From Methylococcaceae bacterium (GTDB taxonomy: Bacteria; Pseudomonadota; Gammaproteobacteria; Methylococcales; Methylomonadaceae): a stretch of DNA of 38,784 nucleotides. Shown one piece after another: positions 14,697 through 34,046 of this stretch. Made by a program: the position numbers and the translations under genes. How positions within the stretch are numbered: position 1 is the stretch's first letter; each line of letters opens with the position of its first letter. The notes under the pieces are model-generated. The model had not been told where the DNA came from. It ran no database searches and saw only the letters and a program-made list of their open reading frames with translations. The DNA lies in assembly GCA_024636875.1 (NCBI GenBank), contig JAGXGJ010000024.1:1-38784 (forward strand), in the 5' to 3' direction.

Positions 14697-14773
<77 letters not shown>

Positions 14774-31603: not shown

Positions 31604-31623
31604 AAATGCATCCTTAATTTAGG

Positions 31624-31719
31624 CAAAAAAAACCTCCTAATGCGTTGCTGCATAAGGAGGTAAAAGCAAGCAGAGCATTATGAGGAGGATCTGCTTGGAG
31701 GTATAACACCAGGAGGTAG
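31624..31719 (-). ncRNA. Candidate 3'UTR-derived sRNA with four CCUCC (anti-SD-like) motifs ending in an intrinsic terminator
   Basis: Minus strand from 31719: CTACCTCCTGG...ATACCTCCAAG...ATCCTCCTCA...TACCTCCTTATGC-AGCAAC-GCATTAGGAGGTTTTTTTT; the third motif lies in the loop of an 8-bp stem. Confidence 0.5.
31625..31661 (-). terminator. Strong intrinsic terminator, minus strand
   Basis: 12-nt arms (31650-31661 and 31632-31643, one mismatch), 6-nt loop, then eight T on the minus strand. Confidence 0.85.
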
Positions 31720-31887
31720 TTAATTTTTTAGCGCTTTGCTGTTCAGTTTTGCTCTCATTACAATGTTGCTATAAATAGCAGCGCCGGCAAATAAGACGGT
31801 TGAAATGATAAATTGTCCGGAAATAAAGCTCGAGATCCCGGCGATAAACATTAAGGCAATAATTATGTCTTTGTTGAAATTGTTCAT
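31720..31887 (-). CDS. 55-aa hydrophobic small protein (not in the ORF track)
   Basis: MNNFNKDIIIALMFIAGISSFISGQFIISTVLFAGAAIYSNIVMRAKLNSKALKN; ends in front of the terminator. Confidence 0.6.
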   Translation of the reverse strand: MNNFNKDIIIALMFIAGISSFISGQFIISTVLFAGAAIYSNIVMRAKLNSKALKN

Positions 31888-31958
31888 TGATTGGATCCTG
31901 AAAAGTTAGAAGTTCTTTGTTGCTGGTTTACAAACTTTGTTGCGTTATTGCATGGTTC

Positions 31959-31996
31959 TTAGTATATCGTGTTATTTATAGGATACAATATACTAA
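31959..31996. promoter_or_regulatory. Operator-like inverted repeat TTAGTATAT-N20-ATATACTAA upstream of the small minus-strand ORF
   Basis: Perfect 9-bp arms 31959-31967 and 31988-31996; a TATAAA-like box lies between them on the minus strand. Confidence 0.45.
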
Positions 31997-32154
31997 ATGA
32001 TAAATTTATTATTTCTTGTTGAGAAACAATTTGTAATGTCAAGTTTTTTATTGATATGAATAAGACAAAAGGCGAAAGGCAAAAAGCGGAAGGCGGAAGG
32101 TACAGATGATAGCTTGTGTCTTTAGCCTTTTACCTGGTTTTTTATGGGGTTTAA

Positions 32155-33063
32155 GTGGATAAGTTAACGAGTATGAATGTTTTCGTTCGTGTCGCAAAAG
32201 CCGGAAGTTTTGCGGGTGGTGCTCGCGAGCTGGGGATTTCCAGAGCAATGGCGACCAAGCATATTATGCAACTTGAAGGCAGCTTGGGAACACGATTAAT
32301 CAATCGTACTACACGCAGTTTAAGTCTGACTGATGTGGGTGTATCTTATCTTGAACGTTGTCAGCAAGTGCTGCTGGATGTTGAGGAAATGGAGTCTGCT
32401 GTAACGCATTTACAGACGGAGCCTCGGGGGGTTTTAAAAATCAGTGCTCCACCGGTTATTGGTGCTACCCATATTGCGCGTGCTGTGGCTGAGTTTTTGA
32501 AAATGTACCCTGATTTAATGATTGATATGGTTTTACAGGGCAGTCCGGGTGATTTGATTGATGAAGGCATCGATGTCGCTATTTATCTGGGGGCTTTAGA
32601 TGATACCAGTATGGTTGCCAGGAAATTAGCCAGTTCGTCACTGGTTGTTTGCGGCTCTCCGGACTATTTGGAACACTATGGAATTCCACAGACACCGGAA
32701 GATTTGGCAGAGCATAGCTGTCTGGTCAATTGGGCGATTGCGCCACGGAATAAATGGAAATTTAAAAGTGAGACAGGGTATAAGGTAGTGCCTGTCTCCG
32801 GGCGAATGCAGGCTAATGCGGCACACGCGATTCGTATTGCTGCGATTAATGGCCTGGGATTGGTTATGTTGCCGACTTACGTAGTGGGCAGGGATATTGA
32901 AAATGGCACACTGAAAGTGGTATTGGGGAATTACCCATTGCCGCCTTTGGATATTCATGCAGTCTATCCGCATAGAAAGTATTTATCAACCAAGGTCAGA
33001 AGTTTTATGGACTTTTTACAGGCTTGGCTGGAACATCGCGTGAGTATGCCAGGAGCAGAATAA
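32155..33063 (+). CDS. LysR family transcriptional regulator
   Basis: N-terminal HTH MNVFVRVAKAGSFAGGARELGISRAMATKHIMQLEGSLGTRLINRTTRSLSLTDVG; GTG start. Confidence 0.95.
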   Translation: MDKLTSMNVFVRVAKAGSFAGGARELGISRAMATKHIMQLEGSLGTRLINRTTRSLSLTDVGVSYLERCQQVLLDVEEMESAVTHLQTEPRGVLKISAPPVIGATHIARAVAEFLKMYPDLMIDMVLQGSPGDLIDEGIDVAIYLGALDDTSMVARKLASSSLVVCGSPDYLEHYGIPQTPEDLAEHSCLVNWAIAPRNKWKFKSETGYKVVPVSGRMQANAAHAIRIAAINGLGLVMLPTYVVGRDIENGTLKVVLGNYPLPPLDIHAVYPHRKYLSTKVRSFMDFLQAWLEHRVSMPGAE

Positions 33064-33641
33064 TGGATGCTTTGATCGACAAATGGAACAAGATCTATAG
33101 TCAGCCTGGTCAGGAGAATTATTCCGCTGTACAGGTTCTAACCGAAAATGACTTTTTATTACCGGCGACCGGGACGGCTCTGGATGTGGCTTGTGGTCAG
33201 GGTGCTAATGCAATTTTTCTCGCTGAACAGGGGCTGGTAGTGACCGCCTGGGATATTTCTTCGGCTGCCATTGATAAATTAACGTCTTATTCAGTCTACA
33301 GAAAATTGAAGGTCAATGCTTGCCAACAGAAAATCACAGCTTATAGCTTTAGCGAATGCAGCTTCGATGTCATCGTTGTGAGTCGATTTCTTGACCGTAC
33401 TTTAAGTGATGCGATAATAGGGGCACTTAAACCGGATGGATTGCTTTTTTATCAGACTTTTTCGCGCGAAAAAACAAGCCCGAAGCCGCCCAATAATCCA
33501 GATTATCTGCTTGGCTGTAATGAGCTGTTGGCGATGTTTTCATCGTTGAGGGTGGTTTTTTACAGAGAAAATGCCTTGGTCGGCGAACAGATGCGCGGTT
33601 TGAGAAATGAGGCTCAGTTTATCGGCCAGAAACGAACATAA
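33063..33641 (+). CDS. Class I SAM-dependent methyltransferase
   Basis: ALDVACGQGANAIFLAEQGLVVTAWDIS; start overlaps the lysR stop (TAATG). Confidence 0.85.
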   Translation: MDALIDKWNKIYSQPGQENYSAVQVLTENDFLLPATGTALDVACGQGANAIFLAEQGLVVTAWDISSAAIDKLTSYSVYRKLKVNACQQKITAYSFSECSFDVIVVSRFLDRTLSDAIIGALKPDGLLFYQTFSREKTSPKPPNNPDYLLGCNELLAMFSSLRVVFYRENALVGEQMRGLRNEAQFIGQKRT

Positions 33642-33653
33642 TGGGTTAATACG

Positions 33654-34046
33654 ATGATAGAAAATTTAAATCCACGACAGGCCTGGGATTTGTTGCAGCA
33701 GAATACTGACGCCGTATTGGTCGATGTGCGAACAAAAGTTGAACATGCTTTTGTCGGCCATCCTCCAGGCGCCATTCATATTGCCTGGAAAGAAGCGCCT
33801 GACTGGCAGATCAACGCAAACTTTGTTGACGAAGTTAAAAAACTCGGGCCTGATAAAAGTGCACCGGTTTTATTGCTGTGCCGCAGCGGACAGCGTTCAC
33901 TGGATGCTGCAAAAGCGCTTGAAGAGGCGGGTTACGAGCGGCTTATCAATATTATTGACGGTTTTGAAGGCTCCCTGGATGAGCATAAACATCGGGGTAA
34001 TCTTGGCGGCTGGCGCTTCAATGGCTTGCCTTGGGTGCAGAGTTAA
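33654..34046 (+). CDS. Rhodanese-like domain protein
   Basis: AVLVDVRTKVEHAFVGHPPGAIHIAW; VLLLCRSGQRSLDAAKAL (active-site Cys loop). Confidence 0.92.
   Translation: MIENLNPRQAWDLLQQNTDAVLVDVRTKVEHAFVGHPPGAIHIAWKEAPDWQINANFVDEVKKLGPDKSAPVLLLCRSGQRSLDAAKALEEAGYERLINIIDGFEGSLDEHKHRGNLGGWRFNGLPWVQS

Follow-up and report, generated by a model that had tools for sequence, protein, structure and literature searches.

A conserved RNA family encoded divergently from the putative watR gene of methanotrophs, and its probable role as a WatR-controlled anti-Shine-Dalgarno regulator

For small RNAs that carry C-rich, anti-Shine-Dalgarno-like motifs, described systems include those of the cyanobacteria and of Rhodobacter sphaeroides. 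In the cyanobacterial RNAs Yfr1 and Yfr10, the UCCU of the anti-Shine-Dalgarno-like core is needed for mRNA binding (PMC6778093), and in R. sphaeroides the CcsR1-4 RNAs belong to the 3′ part of an mRNA for a small protein, within the ccaF1 3′UTR (PMC8625941). A separate body of work concerns acid tolerance in the methanotroph Methylomonas sp. DH-1, where the regulator WatR keeps the watS small ORFs repressed and turns to activating them when acetate is present, watS1-5 being acetate-induced, and binds a site defined by ChIP-seq as ATTGTT-N11-AACAA (PMC10355033). The locus described here, which has features of both kinds of system, lies in the window, the whole 38,784-nt stretch of methanotroph DNA that was analysed.

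The RNA module on the minus strand (Table 1) coincides with the densest CCTCC cluster of the window, four occurrences within 96 nt. A preliminary description of this DNA had reported the four CCUCC motifs, the loop hairpin and the terminator with eight U, and had placed all of them correctly. The cluster by itself is only mildly unusual and proves little, because an equal density is reached in 4 of 200 Markov-simulated windows. Folded alone, the stretch has a minimum free energy of -30.4 kcal/mol (z = -5.1), and none of 200 shuffles folds as well. On the comparative evidence, it is conservation, rather than the motif cluster, that establishes the element as real.

Table 1. Positions in the window of the RNA module, its predicted promoter and the neighbouring genes
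Feature	Position	Strand	Remarks
RNA module, covariance-model match R1	31620..31724	-	linear CCUCC motif to terminator end; 103.6 bits
Intrinsic terminator, U8 end	31625..31661	-	5′ arm is the fourth CCUCC; covarying stem
Hairpin, 8-bp stem CAAGCAGA/UCUGCUUG	31667..31697	-	arms 31667-31674/31690-31697
15-nt hairpin loop holding CUCCUCAU (third CCUCC-type motif)	31675..31689	-	from fold and alignment
Second CCUCC	31697..31701	-	some clades only
Motif 1, CUACCUCCUGGUGUU	31705..31719	-	contains ACCTCCT; largely unpaired, kept family-wide
WatS-like 55-aa hydrophobic small ORF	31720..31887	-	same predicted transcript as the module; missing in other lineages
Predicted promoter	31961..31988	-	-35 TTGTAT 31983-31988, -10 TATACT 31961-31966; conserved among homologues
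WatR-box-like palindrome ATTGTT-N11-AATAAT	32008..32030	-	one mismatch to ATTGTT-N11-AACAAT (12-position palindrome)
LysR-type regulator, watR orthologue by gene order	32155..33063	+	divergent to the RNA
SAM-dependent methyltransferase, smtM by gene order	33024..33641	+	neighbour gene
Rhodanese-like protein, rstM by gene order	33654..34046	+	neighbour gene

Relatives supplied homologues of the upstream 55-aa ORF, many of these homologues being followed by the element seen in the window, and a covariance model was built from 19 that were aligned. A covariance search across the Methylococcales had been proposed in the preliminary description, and it bore out the element: within the window's family the model matches 213 of 237 genomes, mostly as a single copy each and spread over 28 of the 29 genera, and the order's other families, sampled by 74 genomes, give no match. 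Genomes of one genus, g16, often carry two to four copies. A scan of named genomes places the RNA in Methylomonas koyamae, M. methanica, M. lenta, M. fluvii and Methylomonas sp. LW13 as well as in Methylobacter, Methylovulum and Crenothrix. Among 65 distinct sequences, in an alignment that had been fitted to the model's own structure, 96.7% of pair cells are standard pairs and 10 of the 12 pairs show changes on both sides, values that no shuffle attains; sliding the partner register by one base lowers pairing to 43-51%. RNAalifold, run on a plain MAFFT alignment, returns the same two helices with double-sided changes. As far as such comparisons reach, the module is a real RNA family, close to universal in one methanotroph family. 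No family in Rfam 15 reaches its gathering threshold for the module, and a relaxed E-value yields only weak scores for NsiR1, Yfr10 and Pseudomon-1; a tRNA gene at 14697-14770 is the sole above-threshold Rfam match of the whole window. The literature covered on methanotroph small RNAs, consisting mostly of papers available without subscription, contains no description of an RNA at the watR locus. The module thus looks like a new RNA family, absent from Rfam 15, whose putative working parts resemble those of known C-rich anti-Shine-Dalgarno RNAs.

The preliminary description had listed four CCUCC motifs and had read repeated, loop-exposed CCUCC as the hallmark of RNAs that bind ribosome-binding sites; two of the four are conserved throughout the family. 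Among 99 distinct homologues, the linear CCTCC of motif 1 is present in 86, a count inflated by the partial use of motif 1 in choosing the set, and the loop TCCTC in 85. The second CCTCC is found in 27. The terminator arm reads CCTCC in 44 and in the others changes together with its paired partner. Because the linear and loop motifs are kept family-wide while the second is clade-limited and the terminator arm varies with its partner, the unpaired parts that appear to be under selection are thus CCUCCUGGUGUU (linear) and CUCCUCAU (loop). All four motifs acting as functional seeds is ruled out, the second being clade-specific and the fourth a covarying stem. Of the features expected in a C-rich, trans-acting anti-Shine-Dalgarno small RNA, conserved unpaired CCUCC, both linear and in a loop, and a conserved structure closed by an intrinsic terminator are present. 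To this extent the earlier picture is sound: the RNA is conserved and structured, closes with a terminator, follows a small-protein gene in a gammaproteobacterial methanotroph and keeps CCUCC in unpaired positions.

Upstream of the ORF lies a conserved predicted promoter with a predicted transcription start near 31954, which would give a transcript of about 330 nt in the window, with the WatS-like small membrane protein encoded first and the RNA module embedded in the 3′UTR. Two elements of this neighbourhood had escaped the preliminary description, the adjacent watR gene and the WatR box. The order of the LysR-type regulator, SAM-dependent methyltransferase and rhodanese genes equals the watR-smtM-rstM order of Methylomonas sp. 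DH-1, and the regulator is probably watR, an identity drawn from gene order and from relatives such as M. koyamae and LW13 rather than from the DH-1 sequence. A divergent watR lies within 900 nt of the RNA in 81 of 92 loci. The 450 nt upstream of the module were scanned for the palindromic form of the WatR box in 90 distinct loci. When up to one mismatch is allowed, the box occurs upstream in 48 of the 90 and in none of the 90 downstream regions or 270 shuffles; when up to two are allowed, it occurs in 77 upstream and 9 downstream regions. Counted back from the last base of the -10 hexamer, the start of the box is about 70 nt away in most loci. The box at its promoter and the WatS-like ORF suggest that the RNA most likely shares WatR control. 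A purine-rich low-complexity stretch, AAAGGCGAAAGGCAAAAAGCGGAAGGCGGAAGG, lies on the plus strand between the WatR box and watR (32069-32103).

The small ORF itself shows the traits of WatS, with about 50 amino acids, a hydrophobic segment and multiple related copies in a genome that are preceded by WatR boxes. It is thus best described as WatS-like, a comparison made on these traits rather than on the DH-1 WatS1-4 sequences, because its paralogues carry box-like sites upstream, as the DH-1 watS genes are WatR-controlled: in eight of nine RNA-less paralogues such a site, with 0-3 mismatches, lies between -117 and -133. Within the window's genome, the copy described here is the only small ORF of this kind that bears the RNA. 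In the same genome, a second WatS-like ORF (G000:C173:2745-2885; L002, L003) is followed by a different, ordinary terminator without the module and has a WatR-box-like site 118 nt upstream with two mismatches.

As the module lies about 10 nt downstream of the small ORF in most loci, where a terminator would be required regardless, it could be a cis element only, serving as the stabilising 3′ end and terminator of a watS-like mRNA without trans targets. This reading is unlikely, and three observations stand against it. The first is that the module and its promoter persist where an intact ORF is gone. No intact WatS-like ORF is found upstream of the module in 13 loci from at least eight genera, and two loci of genus g29 (L041, L065) preserve a decayed remnant, its C-terminal ...KLNS still legible, flanked by a WatR-boxed promoter and a module that are both intact. 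In five others (L069, L071, L077, L078, L079) the promoter is just 40-70 nt or so ahead of the module, which predicts transcripts of about 140-170 nt. Since the ORF-less loci span so many genera, and since relatives of the same genus can keep the ORF (L072 and L081 for L071; L015 for L069), the loss probably happened repeatedly. The second is that a terminator alone would not require the degree of conservation seen in the linear and loop sequences, and the third that the RNA-less watS-like paralogues have different 3′ ends. In the genomes compared, then, the constant part of the locus is the RNA with its predicted promoter rather than the ORF, because both persist where the intact ORF is gone. 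Two of the 13 loci, both in genus g16 (L068 in genome G085, L082 in genome G082), have the RNA but lack watR in the vicinity as well as the small ORF, and differ in their upstream sequence, which tells against the WatR-controlled reading given below. The origin from a 3′UTR that the preliminary description proposed is accordingly a fair account of the window, and falls short for the lineages in which the RNA follows the same promoter directly. That description had also named a pattern that would speak against a regulator, loci that keep the ORF and lose the motifs; the loci that differ mostly show the opposite, having lost the ORF and kept the motifs.

The best reading of the locus, and one that we consider probable, is that of a WatR-controlled small RNA that represses translation by anti-Shine-Dalgarno pairing. 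A WatR-boxed promoter, divergent from watR, would drive a small-RNA gene of one methanotroph family, that of Methylomonas and its relatives. The module would be expressed as the 3′ part of a longer transcript, from which it may be processed, and in some ORF-less lineages the same promoter would yield a free-standing RNA. Ahead of the U8 terminator it would display the two unpaired anti-Shine-Dalgarno motifs, and it most likely pairs, probably with the help of Hfq, with a group of mRNAs at their ribosome-binding sites, the translation of these mRNAs being lowered, on this reading, when WatR is active, under acetate or weak-acid stress. A trans-acting RNA that covers ribosome-binding sites would fit the unpaired CCUCC motifs, the U8 terminator and the presence of an hfq gene in the genome.

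Candidate targets were scored by pairing start regions with each genome's own RNA. In this scoring the CCUCC core stayed constant and the flanks were permuted, so that Shine-Dalgarno strength was controlled for. A pattern scan for complements near ATG had pointed to truncated globin and bacteriohemerythrin and otherwise to mostly unrelated genes. For bacteriohemerythrin, the 14 genomes scored with the discovery genome left out give p = 2e-4, and a replication in 29 further genomes with motif 1 alone gives p = 0.025 (genus means, p = 0.16). With both motifs, p is about 1e-7 over all 43 genomes and 6e-5 for genus means without the discovery genome, values to be read with the decision to combine the motifs having been taken after the replication result was seen and with the target signal itself having come from a scan. 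Compared with fabI, a control that was itself drawn from the pattern scan and has a partial signal for motif 1, the combined score is higher (p = 0.001), but that of motif 1 alone is not (p = 0.25). The loop is also fitted by six bacteriohemerythrin genes from RNA-less genomes. Bacteriohemerythrin may be a target, and is a suggestive lead only. As a target it would be biologically sensible, because hypoxia strongly raises Bhr-00 in M. denitrificans, and deletion of bhr-00 halts growth of LW13 in a methane-oxygen countergradient (PMC12607906). Truncated globin was rejected as a target: it came up in two genomes of the pattern scan and gives p = 0.02 without the discovery genome, yet is no better than fabI. 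Feedback on watR translation was likewise rejected as a general feature, as the mean z over 83 watR start regions is -0.04 with motif 1 and -0.40 with the loop. In several Methylomonas (L083, L110, L124), the watR ribosome-binding site is CCAGGAG or CCAAGGAGG, complementary to motif 1, a match that is not general in the family. A conserved small exported protein (MNKKQILTACMMTGALL...), with the ribosome-binding site TATGAGGAG (L190 in genome G007, L206 in genome G033), may be a further target of the loop.

The two C-rich motif copies on each molecule could alternatively make the module a sponge, binding a protein (Hfq, ProQ or another) or titrating another small RNA, in the way that such motifs let Yfr2 sponge Yfr1 and Yfr10 (PMC6778093). 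The conserved flanks GGUGUU and CAU, however, resemble pairing seeds and have a partial counterpart in the bacteriohemerythrin start regions, and a sponge is accordingly judged less likely even than a cis element. A chance CCTCC cluster beside an ordinary terminator, for which the equally dense simulated windows are the one argument, has a negligible probability and, within the reach of comparative data, is refuted by conservation, covariation and synteny over 28 genera.

If the regulatory reading is extended to physiology, the LysR-type weak-acid sensor and the divergent anti-Shine-Dalgarno RNA might form a conserved pair that links the build-up of acetate, as in oxygen-limited fermentation, to translation of the oxygen carrier bacteriohemerythrin, so that part of the WatR/WatS acid tolerance, including that of the evolved strain JHM80, would be RNA-mediated. 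This extension is speculative and rather improbable. In JHM80 a TT dinucleotide is missing from the intergenic DNA upstream of watR, transcript levels are given only for the annotated genes flanking that region, and the watR overexpression clones included 500 bp of upstream DNA (PMC6767647). The region of the deletion is the place of the RNA promoter in relatives. A clone with the upstream DNA and only smtM and rstM gave no tolerance (PMC6767647), a result that speaks against any large effect of this upstream DNA by itself, with the qualification that at the spacing of the window 500 bp would exclude the terminator. As the watR promoter mutation and the 500-bp upstream clones overlap the RNA's intergenic region, the existing strains allow a direct test of its role. 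The RNA lies in a locus already exploited for industrial acid tolerance, the genetics of which may need re-reading. It also adds a near-universal RNA family to the methanotrophs, a group with few small RNAs described, and provides a natural series of mRNAs reduced to small RNAs, in which the coding part is gone and the promoter and the RNA are kept.

Among known RNAs, the cyanobacterial NsiR1 (RF02399) is the best relaxed Rfam match (E = 0.007), mainly through the terminator and with no common seed, and the module scores 25.7 bits against a cutoff of 39. Yfr10 (RF02362) and Yfr1 are similar in that a hairpin loop displays a CUCCUCA motif and a terminator comes next, but the module reaches 25.4 bits against the Yfr10 gathering cutoff of 43 and differs in its phylum, its extra linear motif 1, its WatR-type promoter and its watR neighbour. 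The resemblance is likely convergent. The preliminary description had likened the module to CcsR1-4, and this likeness amounts to a functional analogy, consisting of the position towards the 3′ end of an mRNA for a small protein and of the C-rich motifs that the description ascribes to CcsR1-4. The CcsR locus comprises four RNAs and a DUF1127-type RNA-binding protein, whereas here a single module accompanies a small protein that has no Pfam match, and hence is not DUF1127/CcaF1, and no CcsR-like Rfam match to the module is found. The WatR/WatS system of DH-1 corresponds in its operon order watR-smtM-rstM, its binding motif and its membrane peptides of about 50 amino acids; that work, in the parts of the reports that are accessible, is about peptides and an efflux pump and describes no RNA (PMC10355033, PMC6767647), whereas here the region divergent from watR holds a conserved RNA.
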